Assembly: GCF_016809835.1 (NCBI RefSeq)
Contig: NZ_JAFBIL020000006.1
Span: 124,001 to 188,000, forward strand
DNA: 64,000 nucleotides
Direction of reading: 5' to 3'
From: Massilia soli
GTDB taxonomy: Bacteria > Pseudomonadota > Gammaproteobacteria > Burkholderiales > Burkholderiaceae_D
Part shown: positions 36,778-45,743 of the stretch, one piece after another
Layout: every line of letters begins with the position of its first letter
How positions within the stretch are numbered: the stretch's first letter is position 1
The notes under the pieces: model-generated
The model's input: only the letters and a program-made list of their open reading frames with translations
Told to the model about the DNA's origin: nothing
The model's database searches: none
Translations under genes and position numbers: made by a program

Positions 36778-36820
36778 AAGAAACCCGGGACTGTCCACAT
36801 TGGCCAGTCCCGGGTTTTGT
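36778..36820 (+). terminator. Terminator after the small genes
   Basis: AAACCCGGGACTG (36781-36793) pairs with CAGTCCCGGGTTT around an 11-nt loop and ends in TTTTG. The A-rich left side could also let it work in the other direction. Confidence 0.7.
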
Positions 36821-36854: not shown

Positions 36855-36892
36855 AAAAAAATGCGGGCAGAAAGCTTTCGCCCCCTGCCCGC
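36855..36892 (-). terminator. Terminator of the S8 peptidase gene at 36922-38757
   Basis: GCGGGCAG (36863-36870) pairs with CTGCCCGC (36885-36892), followed on the minus strand by seven T. Confidence 0.8.
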
Positions 36893-36921
36893 AGTACGAG
36901 TCCGCCTCGCCGCTGGACGGT

Positions 36922-38757
36922 TTATTTGACCACGTTGACGATCACTGTTGTTTCGGTCAGGTTGCCAGCCTTGTCCTTGGCGGTGGCCTTGATGGTGTGC
37001 GCGCGGGCTACATACTTGTGCGCTTCCCAGGTCCAGGCCAGCGTGCCGCCGTTGCCGTAGGCGCGCAGCACGCCGTCGATCAGCAGCTGCAGGCGCAGGC
37101 CGGAAACATCGCGGTTGTCGGTCGCGCTGACGCTGATGGTCAGGGTGCCCGATACGTTACCGGCAACCGGATTCGTGATCGTGACCACCGGCTTGACCGT
37201 ATCGACGGTCGGCTCGGTCGTCGGCGCAGGCACCGGCTCGGCAACGACGTTGGCCACGTTGACGGCGACATTGGTCGAGCTACCCGCGTTGCCAGCAGCG
37301 TCGTACGCAACGGCAACCAGGTTGACCATGCCGTTGGCCACGCCGGTCGAATCCCAGCTGAAGCTGTACGGTGCGGCGTTATCGACAGCAACGACGGTGC
37401 CGTTGGCCTTCAGTTCGACACGGGTGACGCCGACGTTGTCGGCTGCGCTGACGTTGACGGCAACCGCGCCCGAGACCGTGACGCTGCCCAGGGGCGCCGA
37501 GATGGCGGCGGTCGGCGCGGTGCTGTCGCCTGGAACGCCGTAGTTCTTCGCTGCAGCGACTGCCGCGGCGGCATTCACGCGGCCGTAACCGTAGTAGATG
37601 TCGCGCCCGGCGCTGCCGAGATCGACCGCGGTCGAGTACAGCAGCGACTGGATCGTGTCCGCGCTTAGTTCAGGGCGCGCGGCCATCATCATCGCGGCGA
37701 CGCCTGCGGCGACCGGGCTCGAGAACGAGGTGCCGTTCTTGCTTGCATACTTTCCGCTAAGGGTGGTCGTCCAGATCCCGCTGCCCGGCGCTGCCAGCGA
37801 TACCGCGCTGCCGTAGCTGGAGAAGCTTGAACGTGTATCCGAGCTGGTGGTCGACGAGACCACCACCAGCGCCGGATCGGCAACGATCTTCTCGTCAACG
37901 TTGGCGTTACCAGCCGAAACAAACACCAGGCCGCCCTTGCTCTTCATATAGCGCGCCGCGCTGAGCACTGCCGAACTGGCGGCCAGGCGCGCATAGCTGG
38001 CGTTGGCGATGCGCGCGCCGTTGTCCGCTGCGTAGGTAATGCCGGCAGCGATCGAGCTGTAGGTCGCGTAGCAGTTGTTGTAGGTGGTGTTCCAGTACGC
38101 GATGCGCAAAGGCATGATCTTGGCGGCGCCAGCGATGCCAGCGACGCCCAGGCCGTTGTTGGTCGATGCCGCCGCCGCGCCTGCGACTGCGGTGCCGTGG
38201 CCGCAAATGTCGCTGACATCGGCGTTGTTGTCGTAGATATTGCGTCCTGCGACCAGGTTTGCCTTGAGGTCGGGATGGCTCGCCTCGATGCCCGAGTCGA
38301 GGATCGCGATCGTGATGCCTGCGCCAGCCGACGAATCCCAGGCGGTGGAAGCGCCGATCTTGTTGACGTGCCAGGCGCTGCCGATGTAAGGGTCGTTCAC
38401 CGCCAGGGTGCTTTCGACGATGCGGTCGAGCTCGGCATACTTGAATTCCGGGCGGTGCTGCAACTGTTTCAGGATCGCCGTTTCCGACGCGTTGGCCGGC
38501 AACTCGACGATGTGCAAGTTGCTCTGGCCAATTTTGCGCGACTTGCCTTTGTGCGGCTTGACCAGCTTGTCGAGCGATTCCGTCGACATGCCAGGCTTGA
38601 CTTCGATGAGCAAGCGGCCGCGGACGTAATCATTGACGCCAGGTTCCAGTTGCGCGGCAACTGCGGTCGGGACCGCGAAAGCACCAGCCAGCGCGAGCGC
38701 GAAGACGGTGGCACGGGCAGGCAGCGAGGAGCGGGAGAGGTTGGAGGTGAGGAGCAT
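36922..38757 (-). CDS. Secreted S8 (subtilisin-like) serine peptidase with C-terminal Ig-like domains, copy A
   Basis: 611 aa. The signal peptide ends near TAVAAQ (about residue 35). An inhibitor-type propeptide region covers about 40-120 (GRLLIEVKPGMSTESLDKLV, AELDRIVESTLAVNDPYI). The catalytic domain has D154 in AILDSGIEASHPDL, H187 in DICGHGTAVAGA, oxyanion N284 in SAGNANVD and S344 in KNGTSFSSPVAAG. Two bacterial Ig-like domains follow from about 410 and 518 to the end. It is expected outside the cell or on its surface. ATG 38757 has AGGA 9 nt upstream and a c-di-GMP riboswitch in its leader. A close paralogue lies just upstream. Confidence 0.93.
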   Translation of the reverse strand: MLLTSNLSRSSLPARATVFALALAGAFAVPTAVAAQLEPGVNDYVRGRLLIEVKPGMSTESLDKLVKPHKGKSRKIGQSNLHIVELPANASETAILKQLQHRPEFKYAELDRIVESTLAVNDPYIGSAWHVNKIGASTAWDSSAGAGITIAILDSGIEASHPDLKANLVAGRNIYDNNADVSDICGHGTAVAGAAAASTNNGLGVAGIAGAAKIMPLRIAYWNTTYNNCYATYSSIAAGITYAADNGARIANASYARLAASSAVLSAARYMKSKGGLVFVSAGNANVDEKIVADPALVVVSSTTSSDTRSSFSSYGSAVSLAAPGSGIWTTTLSGKYASKNGTSFSSPVAAGVAAMMMAARPELSADTIQSLLYSTAVDLGSAGRDIYYGYGRVNAAAAVAAAKNYGVPGDSTAPTAAISAPLGSVTVSGAVAVNVSAADNVGVTRVELKANGTVVAVDNAAPYSFSWDSTGVANGMVNLVAVAYDAAGNAGSSTNVAVNVANVVAEPVPAPTTEPTVDTVKPVVTITNPVAGNVSGTLTISVSATDNRDVSGLRLQLLIDGVLRAYGNGGTLAWTWEAHKYVARAHTIKATAKDKAGNLTETTVIVNVVK

Positions 38758-38762
38758 GATAA

Positions 38763-38797
38763 CAATCCTGTCTGATAAAAAATTAGAGGCAGGATTG
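38763..38797 (-). promoter_or_regulatory. RBS-sequestering hairpin, expression platform of riboswitch A (putative)
   Basis: CAATCCTG (38763-38770 on the plus strand) and CAGGATTG (38790-38797) are perfect 8-bp complements. On the transcript the 3' arm contains the AGGA ribosome-binding site 9 nt before the ATG of S8 peptidase A, so pairing would block translation. The equivalent element recurs before copy B. Confidence 0.6.
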
Positions 38798-38865
38798 CGA
38801 AACAGTCCAGTGTAAGACGCGTGCGGACGCGGTCCCACTTGCGCAATTTTTGCGCCTGGAAATGC

Positions 38866-38942
38866 CTGGCAGTCCTGCCGTCATAGGGAAACCCGTTAGA
38901 CCGTTGACTTTGCGTCCTCCCCTTTCGAGGAGTTTGCCGTTT
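38866..38942 (-). promoter_or_regulatory. Cyclic di-GMP-I (GEMM-I) riboswitch upstream of S8 peptidase A
   Basis: On the minus strand the leader contains GGCAAACTCC, a GAAA tetraloop in CTCGAAAGGGGAG, then GACGCAAAGTC, ACGGTCTAA and the closing hairpin GGCAGGACTGCC. This is the order and core sequence of the GEMM-I aptamer (compare GGCAAACC, GACGCAAAGCC, CCGGCCTAA in the Vibrio prototype). Its 3' end lies about 110 nt before the start codon. A putative promoter lies directly upstream. Confidence 0.92.
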
Positions 38943-39422
38943 ACAGATATTGAACTTACTGTACCGCAATTGATTACGTACGGCAATAAAATTCGATTGA
39001 AAACTGTGGTTTGAGCGTCGCGCTTGCGACAGATCAGTAATACCCAACTCGCTATAGAGCAATTCGGACAACTCAATTATTAAATCGATATTGAACTGCA
39101 GCGCGAATAACCCGCCATGGCTGCCATCGCGACCGGCTAACAGGCGGTATTGCGTAGGTTATGCAACGGGACACATCGCATAAACAATATTGATGATCGG
39201 TTAATATGGCTTATCTGAAATAAGCATTAACTCATTTCAATTACTTTCGATGTAAATATTATCCAGTTTAAGCAAATCGATATGCTTTCAATCTACATAC
39301 AAGTATTTCCATTGGATAATATTGAATACCGCACTGGATTTATCACTGCAAACCGCGGGCGCAATGGAAGAGAGGCAAAGGGCTCGCACCCCTTGCCCCT
39401 CCTGTTGCGGCCGCCAGTTCGC
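38943..39422. other. Intergenic region between the two S8 peptidase genes
   Basis: On the minus strand it holds TTGCCG-N17-TACAGT (38986-38958), a plausible promoter for riboswitch A. It also holds, next to copy B, a hairpin with arms GGCAAGGG and CCCTTTGCC (about 39376-39403) with a weak T-rich tail that may terminate copy B. The rest is AT-rich without a recognised gene. Confidence 0.5.
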
Positions 39423-41228
39423 TTATTTCACGTTGTTCACGACCAGCGTTTTCTCGGCCAGATTGCCGGCTTTATCTTTCGCCGTTACCCTGATCGTATG
39501 CGAGCCGGCGGTATATTTGGCGGCGTTCCAGGTCCAGGCCAGGGTGCCGCCGCTGCCGTAAGCGCGCAGAACGCCGTCGATCAGTAATTGCTGACGGATG
39601 CCAGCGACGTCGCTGTTATCCGTCACGCTGATGCTGATGGTCACCCTGCCAGAGACATTGCCGGCAACCGGGTTGGTGATCGTGATGGTGGGCTTGACGG
39701 TGTCGACGGTCGTCGTCGTGGTGGTGGCGTTTGCAACGTTTACCGCGACGCTGGCCGAGCTGCCGCTGTTGCCGGCAGCATCATAGGCAACGGCCACCAG
39801 GTTGGCCATGCCGTTTGCGACGCCGGTCGAATTCCAGCTGAAGCTGTACGGTGCGGCGCTATCGACAGCGACCACCGTGCCATTCGCCTTCAGCTCAACC
39901 CGGGCCACGCCGACGTTATCCGATGCGCCGACGTTGACGGCCACCGCGCCGGACACCGAGGCGTTACCCAGCGGCGCCGAGATGGCCGCTTTCGGCGCGG
40001 TCGTATCGCTGGTCACACCGTAGCTCTTCGCCGCCGCGACCGCGGCCGCCGCATTCACCCGACCATGACCGAAATACACGTCGCGCCCGGCGCTGCCAAG
40101 ATCGACCGCCGTGGAATACATCAGCGACTGGATGGTGTCAGGCTTGAGGTCGGGGCGCGCGGCCATCATCATCGCCGCCACGCCGGCGGCGATCGGGCTC
40201 GAGAACGAGGTGCCGTTCTTGCTCAGGTACGTCGCATTGCGGCCGGTGGTCCAGATGCCGCTACCCGGCGCCGCCAGCGACACTGCCGCGCCATAGCTGG
40301 AAAAACTCGCCCGCGCGTCGCTGCTGGTGGTGGCCGAAACGACGATCAGCGCCGGGTCGGCAGTAATCTTTTCGTCCACATTGGCGTTTCCGGCCGACAC
40401 AAAGACCAGCCCACCCTTGCTTTTCATGTAGCGGGCAGCGCTGAGCACTGCCGAACTGGCAGCCAGCCGCGCGTAGCTCGCATTGGCCACGCGGGCGCCA
40501 TTGTCTGCGGCATAGGTGATGCCGGCGGCAATCGTGCTGTAGGACGCGTAGCAGGAGCTATACGTCGTATTCCAGTAAGCGATGCGCAACGGCATGATCT
40601 TGGCGGCGCCGGCGGTGCCTGCCACGCCGATACCATTATTCGATGCCGCCGCGGCCGCGCCGGCCACTGCCGTGCCGTGGCCGCAAATGTCCGACACATC
40701 GGTGTTGTTATTGTAGATATTGCGTCCCGCAACCAGGTTTGCCTTCAGATCGGGGTGGGTCGACTCGATGCCCGAATCCAGGATTGCGATAGTGATGCCG
40801 CTGCCGCGGGTGGAATCCCAGGCAGCCGGCGCGCCGATCTTGTTGATGTGCCAGGCGCTGCCGATGTAGGGGTCATTGACGGCCATCGTGCTCTCGACAA
40901 GGCGGTCGAGCTCGGCAAATTTGAATTCCGGACGGTGTTCGAGCTGCTTCAGGATGGCAATCTCCGAGGCATGACCTGGCAAGTCAATCACATGCAGGTT
41001 GCTCTGCCCCAGTTTGCGTTTCTTGCCGCCGTATGGCTTGAGTAACTTGTCGAAGGCAGCGTCGGACAAGCCTGGCTTGGCTTCGACCAACAGCCGGCCG
41101 CGCACGAAGCCGTCGAACTCGCCCTGCGGAGCGGCGCCAGCGGTAAAAGGAGCGAAGGCGCAGGCACCGGCAACGGCAAGCGCGGCGGCGCGGATGGCCG
41201 GGTTGGAACGAGTGGAAATACTGATCAT
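39423..41228 (-). CDS. Secreted S8 (subtilisin-like) serine peptidase with C-terminal Ig-like domains, copy B
   Basis: 601 aa, a close paralogue of the neighbouring S8 gene along its whole length, including the propeptide, catalytic and Ig-like parts. The signal peptide ends near FTAGAA. Catalytic residues are D151 (AILDSGIESTHPDL), H184 (DICGHGTAVAGA) and S340 (KNGTSFSSPIAAG), with N280 in SAGNANVD. The Pro/Glu linker before the last Ig-like domain in copy A is replaced by a Thr run (TTTTTVD). ATG 41228 has the same AGGATTGTTA leader. A second c-di-GMP riboswitch precedes it, so gene and leader were duplicated together. Confidence 0.93.
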   Translation of the reverse strand: MISISTRSNPAIRAAALAVAGACAFAPFTAGAAPQGEFDGFVRGRLLVEAKPGLSDAAFDKLLKPYGGKKRKLGQSNLHVIDLPGHASEIAILKQLEHRPEFKFAELDRLVESTMAVNDPYIGSAWHINKIGAPAAWDSTRGSGITIAILDSGIESTHPDLKANLVAGRNIYNNNTDVSDICGHGTAVAGAAAAASNNGIGVAGTAGAAKIMPLRIAYWNTTYSSCYASYSTIAAGITYAADNGARVANASYARLAASSAVLSAARYMKSKGGLVFVSAGNANVDEKITADPALIVVSATTSSDARASFSSYGAAVSLAAPGSGIWTTGRNATYLSKNGTSFSSPIAAGVAAMMMAARPDLKPDTIQSLMYSTAVDLGSAGRDVYFGHGRVNAAAAVAAAKSYGVTSDTTAPKAAISAPLGNASVSGAVAVNVGASDNVGVARVELKANGTVVAVDSAAPYSFSWNSTGVANGMANLVAVAYDAAGNSGSSASVAVNVANATTTTTTVDTVKPTITITNPVAGNVSGRVTISISVTDNSDVAGIRQQLLIDGVLRAYGSGGTLAWTWNAAKYTAGSHTIRVTAKDKAGNLAEKTLVVNNVK

Positions 41229-41233
41229 GTTAA

Positions 41234-41264
41234 CAATCCTGTTTGAAATAGATGAACAGGAATG
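41234..41264 (-). promoter_or_regulatory. RBS-sequestering hairpin, expression platform of riboswitch B (putative)
   Basis: CAATCCTGTT (41234-41243) and AACAGGAATG (41255-41264) pair at 9 of 10 positions around an 11-nt loop. The arm nearest the gene contains the AGGA ribosome-binding site of S8 peptidase B. Loop length and outer sequence differ from copy A while the pairing is retained. Confidence 0.6.
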
Positions 41265-41335
41265 CAAAACAAGCCTGTGCGCGAACTGCATTCAAATGCT
41301 GTCCACGCCTGCGCGATGCGTGCGCCTGGCGATGT

Positions 41336-41418
41336 CTGGCAGTCCTGCCGTCGTGGGAGAAAAATGCCCCGTTAGACCGTTGACTTTGCGCCCTCTCCTT
41401 TCGGGGAGTTTGCCTTTT
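41336..41418 (-). promoter_or_regulatory. Cyclic di-GMP-I (GEMM-I) riboswitch upstream of S8 peptidase B
   Basis: The minus strand reads GGCAAACTCC, a GAAA tetraloop in CCCGAAAGGAG, GCGCAAAGTC, ACGGTCTAA and the closing GGCAGGACTGCC. All GEMM-I core elements are in order and nearly identical to riboswitch A. The variable stem between the last two elements differs in sequence and length. Confidence 0.92.
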
Positions 41419-41583
41419 GCAGAGAGCTTTTATCACGCCACGGTTAATTACTCGCGGCAATAAATTTCAGAACCGAAATGATAGGGGCGTCCGATTGATT
41501 GACGTCGTTCAATTACATTTGCTAACAATATGTCGATGGTCTTTACAGCAACGATTAAACATTAATAAATATTTCGTCACGAT

Positions 41584-41597
41584 TTGATAAAAATCAA
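41584..41597. promoter_or_regulatory. Palindrome TTGAT-N4-ATCAA upstream of PEP-CTERM gene 1
   Basis: TTGAT AAAA ATCAA, 14 nt before the -24 element of the sigma-54 promoter. The same palindrome at the same distance precedes PEP-CTERM gene 2. Likely a binding site for a dimeric regulator. Confidence 0.6.
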
Positions 41598-41611
41598 ATG
41601 CTTAGCGCGCA

Positions 41612-41627
41612 TGGAACGAAACCTGCT
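41612..41627 (+). promoter_or_regulatory. Sigma-54 promoter of PEP-CTERM gene 1
   Basis: TGGAACGAAACCTGCT, with GG and GC spaced by exactly 10 nt. The predicted transcription start is near 41638, 37 nt before the first ATG. Confidence 0.75.
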
Positions 41628-41674
41628 TGATATTTATCGTCGTACCCTTCATTAATAATTCCACCTAGGGGAAT

Positions 41675-42274
41675 ATGATGTCTAATCTTAAGAAAACTAA
41701 AAATTTGACAATGAGTGTTATCGCTGGAACAGCATTATTAATCGGCAGCACATTTTCAACGGCTGCGTTAGCAGAACCGATGTACATGGCCGATACCATG
41801 ATCGGCTCTGGCAATCTCGGCAACTCGGGAGATGAAACGGAAATGCAATTCCTGCGTGACCTCGTCGGCGACCAATCGCTGATGCTGGACAAAAAGGTGG
41901 CGACACCGACGCCTGCCTTGATCGCGTTGGATGACGATGGGCAGTGGTACATCAACGTCGATCCCGACGAGCCAGGCTATTTCATGCTTAAGTTTGGTGT
42001 TGGCAACCTCGGGCTGGACACGCACTACTTCTTCCGGAATATTGGCGAATTGACCAAATTGGTCTGGACTAACGCCGATGTCAACTTCCTCACGGGCGGC
42101 GACTGCGGCGCCAACAACCAGAGCGCGTGCAATATTGGCCGCCTCAGCCACTATTTGATTACCGATCCGGACACCGACGTTCCGCCAAATGAGGTTCCGG
42201 AACCAGGTTCGCTGGCACTGGCCGGACTCGGCTTGCTGGGCCTTTGGGCCGGCCGCCGCAGCGCGAAACGATAA
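41675..42274 (+). CDS. PEP-CTERM sorting domain protein 1
   Basis: 199 aa. A signal peptide ends near TAALAEP. A mature domain of about 130 residues contains MLKFGVGNLGLDTHYFF, KLVWTNADVNFLTGG and CNIGRLSHY. The C-terminal sorting signal is VPEPGSLALAGLGLLGLWAG with a basic tail RRSAKR. PEP-CTERM proteins are exported, cut by exosortase and placed on the surface or into exopolysaccharide matrix. The mature domain is shared with the next gene and not recognised otherwise. Start at 41675 or the adjacent ATG 41678, which is better spaced from AGGGGA. A terminator follows. Confidence 0.9.
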   Translation: MMSNLKKTKNLTMSVIAGTALLIGSTFSTAALAEPMYMADTMIGSGNLGNSGDETEMQFLRDLVGDQSLMLDKKVATPTPALIALDDDGQWYINVDPDEPGYFMLKFGVGNLGLDTHYFFRNIGELTKLVWTNADVNFLTGGDCGANNQSACNIGRLSHYLITDPDTDVPPNEVPEPGSLALAGLGLLGLWAGRRSAKR

Positions 42275-42298
42275 GCTGTTTCAAGACCTGGACCAGCA

Positions 42299-42326
42299 AG
42301 GCGGGACCGCGCGTCCCGCCTTTTTT
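42299..42326 (+). terminator. Rho-independent terminator after PEP-CTERM gene 1
   Basis: GGCGGGAC (42300-42307) pairs with GTCCCGCC (42313-42320), 5-nt loop, followed by six T. Confidence 0.92.
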
Positions 42327-42424
42327 ACCTGGGCAAAAAACACGGTGAATGCTTAAACCATAAGCAGAAATTGTCGAAAAATCTTACACTTGGAAACTTA
42401 AAAGTTCCCATAAGAAACCAGAGT

Positions 42425-42438
42425 TGATTTGAATCAAT
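42425..42438. promoter_or_regulatory. Palindrome TTGAT-N4-ATCAA upstream of PEP-CTERM gene 2
   Basis: TTGAT TTGA ATCAA, again 14 nt before the -24 element. Matches the site upstream of PEP-CTERM gene 1 in arms, spacer length and distance. Confidence 0.6.
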
Positions 42439-42452
42439 GAGTTGGGTGCGCT

Positions 42453-42468
42453 GGCACAAACATTGCAT
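42453..42468 (+). promoter_or_regulatory. Sigma-54 promoter of PEP-CTERM gene 2
   Basis: TGGCACAAACATTGCA, a near-perfect -24/-12 element (TGGCAC-N5-TTGCA) with 10 nt between GG and GC. It lies 48 bp before the ATG. Confidence 0.88.
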
Positions 42469-42515
42469 ATCTTCCAGGAAAAAATAATTATTCAATTTTC
42501 CAACTGGGGTAATGC

Positions 42516-43250
42516 ATGTTTAACCGAAACAATTCTTTTAATGCAATCAACAACTGCCTCGCTGGCGCGCTCGTCGCTGTCGCCGCGCTGGCGCCGCAGA
42601 TGGCGCTCGCTGCGCCAATTTACTCCGTCGACACCCTGCTCGGTTCGGTAACCCTGGACAATTCGGGCAAGGACGAATTGGCCATGCTGCGCCACTACGC
42701 GGGGGATTCCCTGCTCAACTCGACCAAAAGCGAAGGCAACGTAACCGCCTACGCCGACGACGGCCAATGGTTTGTCGACACGGGCACGGCCACGCCGGGG
42801 TTCTTCGTGCTGAAGTTCGGCACCGGCAACACCGGCCAGGATTCGCATTATTTCTTCAAGAATGACGGCGCAATCGGCACCAACAAGCTGGTCTGGACCA
42901 ATGCCCAGGTTGATTTCCTCACCGGTGGCGGCAACTGCTTCGCCGAAGGTACGACCTCCGGCAAGAAGGGGCCGGATCTGGCTTCATGCAATATCGGCCG
43001 CCTGAGCCACTATGCGTTCGTTGGCATGATCACCCCGCCGGTCGACAACCCACCGCCGACGGACAATCCACCGACCGGCAACCCGCCAACGGACAACCCA
43101 CCGACGGATCATCCGCCGACGGACATTCCTCCGACCGATGTGCCTCCAACCGATGTTCCTCCAACCGATATCCCGGAACCTGGCTCATTGGCATTGGCGG
43201 GCCTTGGCTTGCTGGCACTGTTCGGCGCACGCAAGAAGCTCGCCAAGTAA
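42516..43250 (+). CDS. PEP-CTERM sorting domain protein 2 with PPTD repeats
   Basis: 244 aa, paralogue of the preceding gene. The signal peptide ends near MALAAP. The mature domain repeats the motif set VLKFGTGNTGQDSHYFF, KLVWTNAQVDFLTGGGNC and CNIGRLSHY. Residues about 175-218 are some nine pentapeptides of the form PPTDx (PPTDN, PPTGN, PPTDH, PPTDI, PPTDV), probably a stiff spacer holding the domain off the surface. The sorting signal IPEPGSLALAGLGLLALFG with RKKLAK tail ends the protein. It has its own sigma-54 promoter and its own terminator, so the two PEP-CTERM genes are separate units under similar control. Confidence 0.92.
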   Translation: MFNRNNSFNAINNCLAGALVAVAALAPQMALAAPIYSVDTLLGSVTLDNSGKDELAMLRHYAGDSLLNSTKSEGNVTAYADDGQWFVDTGTATPGFFVLKFGTGNTGQDSHYFFKNDGAIGTNKLVWTNAQVDFLTGGGNCFAEGTTSGKKGPDLASCNIGRLSHYAFVGMITPPVDNPPPTDNPPTGNPPTDNPPTDHPPTDIPPTDVPPTDVPPTDIPEPGSLALAGLGLLALFGARKKLAK

Positions 43251-43273
43251 GAACGCAACAGCCGGGCGCATGA

Positions 43274-43308
43274 GGGCGGAACCTGACATGGTTCCGCCCT
43301 TTCTTTTT
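43274..43308 (+). terminator. Rho-independent terminator after PEP-CTERM gene 2
   Basis: GGGCGGAACC pairs with GGTTCCGCCC around a 6-nt loop and is followed by TTTCTTTTT. Confidence 0.92.
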
Positions 43309-43388: not shown

Positions 43389-45743
43389 ATGCGTCTCTTC
43401 GCACTTCCCCTACTCGCTGCAATCTGGGCAATCCCCGCCGCAGCCTATACCCCCATCAGCCTCGACCAAGCCATGTCCCACCCGGACTGGATCGGCACAC
43501 CTGCGGAAGACGCCTGGTGGAGCTGGGACGGCAAACAGGTGTTCTACAAGCAGAAGCGCACCGGCTCTCAGCTGCGCGACACCTTCCAGGCCGTGCCTGG
43601 CCAGCCGCGCCGCATTGGCGACGCCGAGCTGGGCAACATGGATGGCCCCAACGTCACGTACAACCGCGACCGCACCCGCGCCATCCTGCTGCGCAACGGC
43701 GACCTGTTCGAGCGCGACCTCAAGTCCGGCGCGCTGACCCAGATCACCCGTGGCAGCAGCGGCCTGGCAGCGCCGCAGTACTCGGCCGATGGCGCCAGCG
43801 TGCAGTTCCGCGTCGGCCACGAATGGCTCAGCTGGAACCGCGCCGACCGCCTGGTCTCGCCGGTGGTGCGCCTGCGCGCCGAGAAGGACCCGGCCGCCGC
43901 GCCCGACGACGACGCCTTGCGCGCGATGCAGCTGCGCCTGATCTCGACGCTCAAGCGCCAGAAGGACGACCGCGACGCCGCACGCGACCGCACCGAAGAA
44001 GAACGCCGCGCCGACCTGACCCGCGCGCCAGGCCCGGTGTACCTGGGCGACAAGGTCGTCATCGACGGCAGCGCGCTGTCGCCCGACGGCCGCTGGCTGC
44101 TCGCCGTGACGGCGCCGAAAACCACCGACAAGGGCCGCGTCGGCAAGATGCCGCGCTATATCACCGAATCGGGCTACGAAGAATTCGACGACCAGCGTCC
44201 ACGCGTCGGCCGCAACCTGCCGCTGGCCCACGCGCTCAAGCTGATCGACCTGAAGACCCGCAAGGTGCACGAGCTGTCGTTCGACGTGCTGCCGGGCGTG
44301 TCCACCGATCCCCTGGCCGAACTGCGCAAAGCCCGCAAGATAGACCCGCTCAAGGGCAATCGCACCGTGCGCGTCGATGACGACGGCGAAAGCATCCGCT
44401 GGAGCGCCAACGGCTCGCAGGCCGCCGTGATGCTGCGCGCGGTCGACAACAAGGACCGCTGGATCGCCAAGGTCGACCTGGCCGGCATCAAGCTCAATCC
44501 GGTGCACCGCCAGAGCGACGTCGCCTGGGTCAACTCGGGCAACAACGACTTTGGCTGGCTGCCGGATAACGGCACGCTGTGGTTCCTGTCGGAAGAAACC
44601 GGCTACTCGCACCTGTACACCATGAGCGCGGACAACGCGGTTCGCCCGCTTACCGTCGGCAACTGGGAGGCGACCCGCGTGCAGTGGACCTCGGATGGAG
44701 CGACTGCCTACATGCTGTGCAACCCGAAAAATCCGGGAACCTATGAAGTGTGCGCGGTTTCGGCCAAAGCCGGCACGCTGCGCGAAGCGACCACGCTCGA
44801 AGGCGTCGAGCACTTCACGCTGTCGCCCGACCAGCGCAAGCTGCTGGTCGGTTACTCGTCGAGCTACATGCCGATCCAGCTGGCCACGGTGCCCGCGGCA
44901 GGCGGCGCCGCGACCAAACTGACCGATACGCGCACCGCCGAATTCAAGGCGCGCAGCTGGATCGAGCCGCAGTACGTCGCGGTACCGTCGACCAAGGGCG
45001 CGGGGCCGATCTGGGCCAAGCTGTATCGGCCGGCGAACCTCGAAGCTGGCAAGAAGTACCCGATCGTGATGTTCGTGCATGGCGCCGGCTACCTGCAGAA
45101 CGTCAGCAAGCGCTACCCGGTGTACTTCCGCGAGCAGATGTTCCACAACCTGCTGGTGGAAAAAGGCTACATCGTGCTGGACATGGACTACCGCGCCTCG
45201 AAGGGCTATGGGCGCGACTGGCGCACGGCGATCTATCGCCAGATGGGGTATCCGGAGCTGGACGACTATATCGACGGCGTCAACTGGATGGCGGCGAACC
45301 ACCAGGGCGACCTGAAAAACGTCGGCATCTACGGCGGCAGCTATGGCGGCTTCATGACCTTCATGGCCCTGATGCGCGCGCCGGACTCGTTCAAGTCGGG
45401 CGCGGCCCTGCGTCCGGTGACCGACTGGACCACCTACAACCACGAGTACACGTCCAACATCCTCAACACGCCGGACCTGGACCCTGAAGCGTATCGCAAG
45501 TCGTCGCCGATCGAATACGCCGACCAGTTGCGCGGCAACCTGCTGATCTCGCACGGCATGGTCGACGACAACGTGTTTTACCAGGACTCGGTGCGCATCG
45601 CGCAGCGCCTGATCGAGCTGAAGAAGGACAACTGGGAAATGGCCAGCTACCCGCTCGAGCGGCACGCGTTTGTGCAGCCGGAGAGCTGGTATGACCAGTA
45701 CCGCAGGATTTACCAGCTGTTTGAACGGACGCTGAAGAAGTGA
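43389..45743 (+). CDS. S9 family prolyl oligopeptidase (DPP IV-like), exported
   Basis: 784 aa. The signal peptide ends near PAAAYTP. The N-terminal half is a beta-propeller-like domain (PQYSADGASVQFRVG, LSPDGRWLLAV). The C-terminal alpha/beta hydrolase has S651 in IYGGSYGGFMTF, acid in ISHGMVDDNVFYQ and histidine in LERHAFVQPESW. Such enzymes cut short peptides, often after proline, in the periplasm or outside. It is preceded by the PEP-CTERM terminator and appears to be its own unit. Confidence 0.92.
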   Translation: MRLFALPLLAAIWAIPAAAYTPISLDQAMSHPDWIGTPAEDAWWSWDGKQVFYKQKRTGSQLRDTFQAVPGQPRRIGDAELGNMDGPNVTYNRDRTRAILLRNGDLFERDLKSGALTQITRGSSGLAAPQYSADGASVQFRVGHEWLSWNRADRLVSPVVRLRAEKDPAAAPDDDALRAMQLRLISTLKRQKDDRDAARDRTEEERRADLTRAPGPVYLGDKVVIDGSALSPDGRWLLAVTAPKTTDKGRVGKMPRYITESGYEEFDDQRPRVGRNLPLAHALKLIDLKTRKVHELSFDVLPGVSTDPLAELRKARKIDPLKGNRTVRVDDDGESIRWSANGSQAAVMLRAVDNKDRWIAKVDLAGIKLNPVHRQSDVAWVNSGNNDFGWLPDNGTLWFLSEETGYSHLYTMSADNAVRPLTVGNWEATRVQWTSDGATAYMLCNPKNPGTYEVCAVSAKAGTLREATTLEGVEHFTLSPDQRKLLVGYSSSYMPIQLATVPAAGGAATKLTDTRTAEFKARSWIEPQYVAVPSTKGAGPIWAKLYRPANLEAGKKYPIVMFVHGAGYLQNVSKRYPVYFREQMFHNLLVEKGYIVLDMDYRASKGYGRDWRTAIYRQMGYPELDDYIDGVNWMAANHQGDLKNVGIYGGSYGGFMTFMALMRAPDSFKSGAALRPVTDWTTYNHEYTSNILNTPDLDPEAYRKSSPIEYADQLRGNLLISHGMVDDNVFYQDSVRIAQRLIELKKDNWEMASYPLERHAFVQPESWYDQYRRIYQLFERTLKK

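Follow-up and report, generated by a model that had tools for sequence, protein, structure and literature searches.

In a 64,000-nucleotide stretch of the Massilia soli genome (NZ_JAFBIL020000006.1, positions 124,001-188,000; hereafter the window, whose own numbering is used for all coordinates at the locus), two tandem genes for secreted S8 subtilases, S8a and S8b, occupy the minus strand between 36922 and 41424, each preceded by an aptamer of the class I cyclic diguanylate (c-di-GMP-I, or GEMM-I) riboswitch. Divergent from them on the plus strand (41612-43298) are two genes for PEP-CTERM proteins, PC1 and PC2, each preceded by a sigma-54-like -24/-12 site and followed by a terminator-like hairpin. 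This arrangement of two paralogous pairs had been described in an earlier note made from the sequence of the window alone, and it was confirmed by Pfam, Rfam and a promoter scan. The same note proposed that the peptidases process or release the PEP-CTERM proteins, or remodel a matrix that they share. Here we examine the locus as a candidate module for the shedding of stalked surface or matrix proteins under the control of c-di-GMP.

S8a (39423..41228, minus strand, 601 amino acids) and S8b (36922..38757, minus strand, 611 amino acids, with a signal-peptide-like start) are 78.5% identical when their starts are refined. Pfam recovered the Peptidase_S8 domain (PF00082) in both, with E values of 6e-44 and 4e-42, together with a fervidolysin-type propeptide and two immunoglobulin (Ig)-like stretches of the Big_7 type in each protein. 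The columns of the catalytic triad (D172, H205, S362) are invariant across the 15 proteins of our alignment A1, and the best match in the PDB is thermitase. A terminator-like inverted repeat, recognized in the sequence, follows S8b (36784..36814, minus strand). The aptamers of S8b (38865..38948, minus strand) and S8a (41335..41424, minus strand) match the Rfam c-di-GMP-I model over its full length with 68.8 and 63.9 bits respectively, against a gathering score of 35. Both contain the core GGCAAAC, and position G12 is invariant in 30 of 30 aligned aptamers. In the c-di-GMP-I core, the G before CAAA lies next to the ligand site and has a role in the choice of c-di-GMP.

The two plus-strand proteins are 50% identical and both end in a PEP-CTERM signal (PF07589, E 3e-7 and 4e-7). 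PC1 (41675..42274, 199 amino acids) has a short Asp/Pro stalk ahead of the PEP motif, and PC2 (42516..43250, 244 amino acids) a long proline-rich stalk with PPTD repeats. By sequence scan, the sigma-54-like promoter of PC1 is TGGAACGAAACCTGC (41612..41626, plus strand) and that of PC2 is TGGCACAAACATTGC (42452..42466, plus strand). Hairpins followed by T runs, also read from the sequence, lie 3' of PC1 (42300..42320, plus strand) and 3' of PC2 (43275..43298, plus strand). Across the genome as a whole the pertinent machinery is at hand: there are 27 PEP-CTERM matches and two exosortases (PF09721), which, with the signals of PC1 and PC2, place both proteins in a PEP-CTERM/exosortase system. There are also two PrsR regulators (TIGR02915) over the cut-off, and the sites at 41612 and 42452 together with genomic PrsR fit the PrsK/PrsR-RpoN type of control, PrsK itself lying outside the search. 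On these sites and the genomic PrsR, dependence of PC1 and PC2 on PrsR is putative. When all 5.0 Mb of the genome were searched for c-di-GMP-I, with 150 of 299 first-look candidates scored, only the two aptamers of the window were returned at E 0.001.

Association of the S8 subfamily with PEP-CTERM genes

If the pairing of these genes were meaningful, it should persist in relatives, as the earlier note had itself pointed out. We scanned 294 genomes of the same family for c-di-GMP-I and found aptamers in 104 of them. Of the 143 hits listed, 124 were carried on (the 19 dropped comprised 14 from genus g6, 4 from g32 and one below the cut-off), and the downstream gene was examined for the 119 with a fetched locus. 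S8 genes constituted the largest class of downstream genes (31 of 119), four of them being distant members. Among loci of the close S8 subfamily that were informative, a PEP-CTERM gene lay within 1.5 kb of the aptamer-led S8 gene in 14 of 20, as against just 1 of 76 other c-di-GMP-I loci (Fisher p=2e-11); at S8 loci of the family that lack an aptamer the figure was 0 of 4 (p=0.02, in a small set). As in all our counts, the loci are not independent, Massilia and its kin being over-represented and some genomes appearing twice.

A second set, of 80 loci, was gathered by an S8 alignment scan of named genomes that was blind to both RNA and PEP-CTERM. It spans Massilia, Telluria, Pseudoduganella, Noviherbaspirillum, Nitrosomonas, Nitrotoga, Thauera, Aromatoleum, Methylomonas, Thiorhodococcus and a Nitrospirales genome, among others. 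With 18 loci set aside for their nearness to a contig end, PEP-CTERM genes were present within 1.5 kb at 41 of the 62 informative loci, including 28 of the 38 with an aptamer, and they were denser close to S8, with 43 genes over 212 kb, than at greater distance, with 8 over 494 kb. Aptamers upstream of S8 were called with a model, R1, built from 30 aptamers, which detected one in 49 of the 80 loci (one call, at L256, is weak, at 24.9 bits). Rfam found c-di-GMP-I or its GGC variant in 14 of 14 R1-positive loci submitted, all of them outside the Massilia group and chosen for a core pattern already seen, and neither of the two in any of the 31 loci without an R1 match. The c-di-GMP-I-GGC variant (RF03167) scored best in nine of those 14 (L242, L244, L247, L253, L255, L258, L261, L281 and L284); a search of an open library for literature on its ligand turned up nothing relevant. 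When the presence of an aptamer is mapped on a tree of 88 S8 proteins, it takes 11 changes to explain, against 27.7 for shuffled labels. Aptamers are found in distant branches of this tree, and whole clades are without them, for example a clade of eight proteins that are mostly from Sphaerotilaceae and another of four Methylomonas proteins.

Conservation in both the family and the named set rules out a chance neighbourhood of the gene cluster. Since the layout is kept in relatives and sigma-54-like sites are near-universal at the adjacent PEP-CTERM genes (see below), it goes beyond chance, and the comparison of sequences strongly supports a co-occurrence of the S8 subfamily with PEP-CTERM genes that is far wider than could be seen from the window.

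The same figures bear on the best-surviving alternative, namely that the peptidase is a digestive exo-enzyme that lies by chance near matrix genes, as one of many secreted factors repressed by c-di-GMP, and has no specificity for PEP-CTERM proteins. Its S8 domain is indeed of an ordinary, thermitase-like kind, and other secreted proteins of the family, including a lytic transglycosylase and a possible metallopeptidase, stand under c-di-GMP-I. Such an enzyme would not account for the contrast between 14 of 20 and 1 of 76 loci, nor for the result that none of nine distant S8 genes had a PEP-CTERM gene in its 1.5 kb flanks, and we regard this explanation as unlikely.

The wider c-di-GMP-I targets of the family deserve description in their own right. 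In a different genus of the family, c-di-GMP-I aptamers directly precede the genes of distant S8 peptidases (L125 10342-7875(-), L126 and L127) that are 33-35% identical to those of the window over the matched part, and no PEP-CTERM gene was present in the fetched stretches of these three loci. A further secreted class (L175 3267-4907(-), in a cluster of 8 hits) is weakly reprolysin-like, with a Pfam E value of 2e-4 that is below the cut-off, so that extracellular peptidases other than S8 enzymes may also be under riboswitch control. Other genes under c-di-GMP-I encode an Ig-rich, lipoprotein-like protein of about 890 amino acids (L130 5126-7789(+), in a cluster of 17 hits) and a lytic transglycosylase lipoprotein (L193 4159-4890(-), in a cluster of 10 hits).

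Peptidase leaders and PEP-CTERM partners

To gauge how the aptamer might act, we considered 66 leaders with hand-picked start codons, skipping L220, L239, L242, the distant S8 loci L124-L127 and named loci that duplicate family ones. Forty-one of these are of a type that we term Burkholderiales-type, selected by lineage after the leaders had been inspected. In such leaders the 3' strand of the aptamer is often CAGGACUGCC, and just ahead of the start codon stands a hairpin whose 5' strand is often GGCAGUCCUG and whose 3' strand carries the ribosome-binding site (RBS). The 5' strand of the hairpin is able to pair with either the RBS or the 3' strand of the aptamer, and the RBS hairpin and the aptamer can coexist. 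In the window, the hairpin of S8b (38755..38798, minus strand) is formed by an anti-Shine-Dalgarno (anti-SD) strand at 38788-38798 and an SD strand at 38755-38771, and ends at the ATG; that of S8a (41226..41265, minus strand) pairs 41254-41265 with 41226-41244.

Of the 41 Burkholderiales-type leaders, 39 have their SD core paired to the upstream strand; in 40 rounds of shuffling the upstream part, the mean count was 18.4 and the highest 23. In 37 of the 41, enforcing the aptamer left the SD less accessible than releasing the aptamer's 3' strand did, and relative to the unconstrained fold the enforced aptamer lowered SD accessibility from 0.24 to 0.00 in S8b and from 0.31 to 0.21 in S8a. By duplex energy, the two competing pairings overlap at a useful energy in 57 of all 66 leaders, against 30.1 expected from shuffles, the pairing with the aptamer strand being non-significant in most leaders taken singly. 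Positions flanking the hairpin core vary in pair type among the Burkholderiales-type leaders (A-U, G-C and U-A just after AGGA, for example). A MAFFT alignment being imperfect for such short hairpins, the pair types were counted on each leader's own predicted fold, a procedure that leans towards pairing. A switch by transcription termination is ruled out in the lineage of the window, where the hairpin runs into the SD and the start codon with no T run. Taken together, these features furnish moderate evidence for a switch, in the window's lineage only, that would turn translation off when c-di-GMP is bound.

The opposite polarity has to be weighed here. Under an ON switch the peptidase would be made at high c-di-GMP, and would process or mature the PEP-CTERM proteins as the matrix forms. 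Riboswitches can be of either kind, and a review, in the part of it available, begins to contrast a class I switch of Bacillus thuringiensis with the off switches of Clostridioides difficile. The modest differences in accessibility, the leaders that stay closed in every state and the lack of any excess of sequestering hairpins outside the Burkholderiales-type leaders all leave room for it. The layout in the window's lineage, where hairpin and aptamer are compatible and the anti-SD competes with the aptamer for its 3' strand, is nonetheless that of an OFF switch, as is the direction of the shift in 37 of 41 leaders, so that we judge an ON switch improbable, a shade more so than the digestive enzyme.

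On the other side of the locus, the partners of the peptidases proved to be diverse. The 69 PEP-CTERM proteins encoded within 3.2 kb of S8 genes, some genomes being sampled twice, fall into 20 BLAST clusters, which rules out a single conserved partner family. Thus, the association that the earlier note envisaged holds for PEP-CTERM proteins as a class and the S8 subfamily, and fails for any one partner domain. Partners of the window type also occur beside S8 in Nitrosomonadales (L253, L256). In a Methylococcaceae locus, a relative of that type next to S8 (L268 7181-7876(+)) ends not in PEP-CTERM but in a VPxPA-like tail, so that proteins with other sorting signals may also fill the partner slot; our PEP-CTERM motif model misses variants such as this one. 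Among nine partners scanned, several matched the model of the floc protein PepA at scores below its cut-off, L231 and L267 across nearly the entire model, and two of the nine had a choice-of-anchor N domain over the cut-off. AlphaFold2 modelled the PC1 family poorly (predicted local distance difference test score, pLDDT, 61), and a fold search of the PDB with this low-confidence model gave nothing at E 0.001 or better.

What these partners do share is the stretch that precedes the PEP motif. Its fraction of disorder-promoting residues is 0.70 in 55 near proteins against 0.53 in 54 controls (p=1.5e-10), its hydrophobic fraction 0.25 against 0.44, and the disorder-promoting excess persists in the 12 near proteins of the family loci alone (p=7.8e-6). 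The near set omits proteins more than 1.5 kb off and duplicate stalks; the controls, drawn from the window genome and 20 related genomes with L043, L045 and L305 excluded as near genes themselves, cover a narrower range than the near set. The stalks are variously composed of Gly runs, PPTD repeats, or Cys pairs with prolines, and on composition the stretch looks like a flexible stalk linking the domain to its anchor. This departure of the S8-adjacent proteins from other PEP-CTERM proteins is a further point against a digestive enzyme in a chance setting. Two genomes of genus g15 of the family (L306, L319) encode PEP-CTERM proteins that have an SHYTL motif and a Gly-rich stalk and are similar to the near proteins. 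Their genes and the S8 genes of these genomes lie on different contigs, and the proteins may be S8 substrates in trans.

The promoters separate the two arms of the locus. A sigma-54-like site with a score of at least 11.5 was detected in 52 of 55 distinct upstream regions of near PEP-CTERM genes, in 28 of 53 control PEP-CTERM genes and in 15 of 295 shuffled sequences. Among the regions upstream of aptamers, 0 of 82 reached a score of 12.5 and 4 of 82 reached 11.5, by which sigma-54-driven S8 genes are ruled out. A third alternative, that the PEP-CTERM partner is a surface dock or modulator on which S8 sits through its Ig domains while acting on other matrix or prey proteins, is suggested by the wide variation of partner domains beside the two Ig stretches in each window S8 protein and by a stalked anchor that would also suit display, yet it would require one common docking feature in some 20 unlike clusters and might lead one to expect co-regulation of dock and enzyme where the promoter types in fact differ, and it is the least probable of those considered.

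Two neighbouring features may be recorded in passing. A gene for a secreted S9 prolyl oligopeptidase (43389-45743(+)) adjoins PC2, the hairpin 3' of PC2 standing between them; it is kept near S8 or PEP-CTERM genes in three loci of the same genus (L090, L099, L101) in which the PEP-CTERM type changes, and may represent background synteny. A CRISPR array with CRISPR-DR4 repeats (L274 1075-2483(+)) lies a few kb from the S8 gene in a gammaproteobacterial genome.

Proposed shedding at falling c-di-GMP and its known counterparts

Shedding is the simplest reading of these observations, and its mechanism is plausible. Under it, sigma-54 would drive the synthesis of the stalked PEP-CTERM proteins, and exosortase would be expected to put them on the surface or in the exopolysaccharide matrix. 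The S8 subtilase would be transcribed from a promoter that has no sigma-54-like site, into a messenger RNA whose leader bears the c-di-GMP-I aptamer. With c-di-GMP bound, the aptamer would keep its own 3' strand, leaving the anti-SD strand free to cover the RBS, and translation would be off. As c-di-GMP falls, the anti-SD strand would pair with the 3' strand of the aptamer, the RBS would open, and the peptidase would be made and secreted. It would then cut the anchored PEP-CTERM proteins, most likely in the Gly/Pro/Asp-rich flexible stalk by the PEP motif, and their release would loosen the matrix or flocs. The computation establishes the parts and their preservation as a unit, the stalk that the partners have in common, the sigma-54-like sites and, for Burkholderiales-type leaders, the hairpin over the RBS; from these we infer the response to the ligand, the OFF direction, the cleavage and its site, and the role in dispersal. 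A flexible stalk and a predicted OFF switch are compatible with the cutting of PEP-CTERM proteins by S8. On balance, we give an even chance to the view that the locus is a shedding module controlled by c-di-GMP.

Several results weigh against it. Within the family, 6 of the 20 aptamer-S8 loci have no PEP-CTERM gene within 1.5 kb, two of these six (L099, L101) having one about 3 kb off; in the named set, 21 of the 62 informative loci have none at that distance, 10 of them with an aptamer. Furthermore, the aptamer is no predictor of a PEP-CTERM neighbour at the named loci (13 of 24 without it, 28 of 38 with it; Fisher p=0.17). As the neighbour is thus independent of the aptamer in this set, the tie is one between the S8 subfamily and the PEP-CTERM class, with the aptamer as a frequent form of control, and given the two p values (0.02 in the family, 0.17 in the named set) we do not claim that the aptamer predicts a PEP-CTERM neighbour better than S8 alone. 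The shift in accessibility between bound-like and released states is modest, from a mean of 0.13 to 0.20, and in the window it amounts to 0.00 against 0.06 in S8b and 0.21 against 0.44 in S8a; L092 and L094 have no hairpin at the usual place. Among the remaining 25 leaders, which come from more distant lineages, 14 have a paired SD core where shuffling gives a mean of 12.3, which rules out an SD hairpin common to all lineages. By duplex energy, p was at or below 0.05 for the SD hairpin in 30 of the 66 leaders and for the pairing with the aptamer strand in 16. Sigma-54-like sites are not specific to the partners, given their presence at about half of the control PEP-CTERM genes, and the diversity of the partner domains means that any specificity would need to come from the stalk.

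The logic of such a module has a known precedent. According to the available portions of two reports, the peptidase ZmpI/PPEP-1 (CD2830) of C. difficile is governed by a class I riboswitch, is produced when c-di-GMP is low, and cleaves the adhesins CD2831 and CD3246 close to the point where they are anchored in the wall; CD2831, encoded beside it, is cut in a proline-rich region and released (PMC6447587, PMC6366702). The window resembles this system, as far as those portions describe it, in having a secreted peptidase with a class I c-di-GMP riboswitch and an adjoining gene for a surface protein. The differences are as follows: ZmpI/PPEP-1 is a zinc metallopeptidase, whereas the window encodes an S8 subtilase; the C. 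difficile anchor is sortase/LPXTG-like, in contrast to the PEP-CTERM signal; the C. difficile substrate genes have class II ON riboswitches of their own, in place of the sigma-54-like promoters seen here; the C. difficile class I switches work by transcription termination, as against the translational block predicted here, where cleavage too is a prediction; and the setting of the window module is Gram-negative, unlike that of C. difficile. Because this logic already exists in C. difficile, where sortase-anchored adhesins are shed under a class I riboswitch, the contention that no such system had been described was too strong. Open full-text searches, which miss most subscription journals, yielded no account of the module seen here. 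Overall, the interpretation offered in the earlier note is partly supported: the co-occurrence holds, with the corrections that the tie is to PEP-CTERM proteins as a class and that a system of this logic was already known.

Gram-negative bacteria furnish partial parallels. In the Lap system of Pseudomonas fluorescens (LapD, LapG, LapA), a surface adhesin is freed by proteolysis when c-di-GMP is low, and control is exerted by a c-di-GMP-binding membrane protein that restrains a cysteine protease. The release of a surface protein by a protease at low c-di-GMP, as proposed here, is alike; the control, in contrast, is predicted to lie at the protease mRNA, and the protease is an S8 enzyme. The protease of the locus itself is therefore not of LapG type, lapD and lapG elsewhere in the genome lying outside the search. 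In Aquincola tertiaricarbonis, the available text describes an RpoN-dependent pepA gene with TGGCAC and CTGCTT boxes that functions in floc formation, and the overexpression of which lowers the release of soluble exopolysaccharide (PMC9850573). This is likewise a sigma-54-driven PEP-CTERM protein tied to matrix retention; it differs in that the accessible portion mentions no riboswitch-controlled peptidase and c-di-GMP occurs 0 times in the main text (PMC9850573). In Methylophaga nitratireducenticrescens GP59, c-di-GMP riboswitches are listed as flanking PEP-CTERM genes in the part of the report at hand, and so link the two in one genome region, as in the window; the table there, unlike the window, names no S8 peptidase (PMC12530212).

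Beyond the window, a reading that we rate as somewhat less likely than not is a widespread and hitherto unnamed sheddase system, in which one S8 subfamily would free exosortase-sorted matrix proteins of many domains by way of a common stalk. On the same reading, its control would be by c-di-GMP-I in many Betaproteobacteria, some Gammaproteobacteria and Nitrospirota, and translational in the Burkholderiales type. To our knowledge, how PEP-CTERM proteins exit from the surface is an open question, and the tie between riboswitch-led S8 genes and PEP-CTERM proteins across distant lineages would offer a testable answer. Such proteins are numerous in environmental bacteria of this kind, as the 27 matches in the window genome attest, and one of them matters for flocs, according to the available text (PMC9850573). 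If the reading is correct, sigma-54 would be the input for building the floc or biofilm matrix and falling c-di-GMP the input for its release, the shedding logic of C. difficile would have been built from other parts, and class I c-di-GMP riboswitches would have a defined class of targets in these Gram-negative bacteria; within the family of the window, 31 of the 119 hits examined lead to S8 genes. That a riboswitch-led S8 gene repeatedly neighbours one encoding a surface or matrix protein, across many environmental bacteria, suggests a widespread route by which such proteins may be shed when the signal falls.

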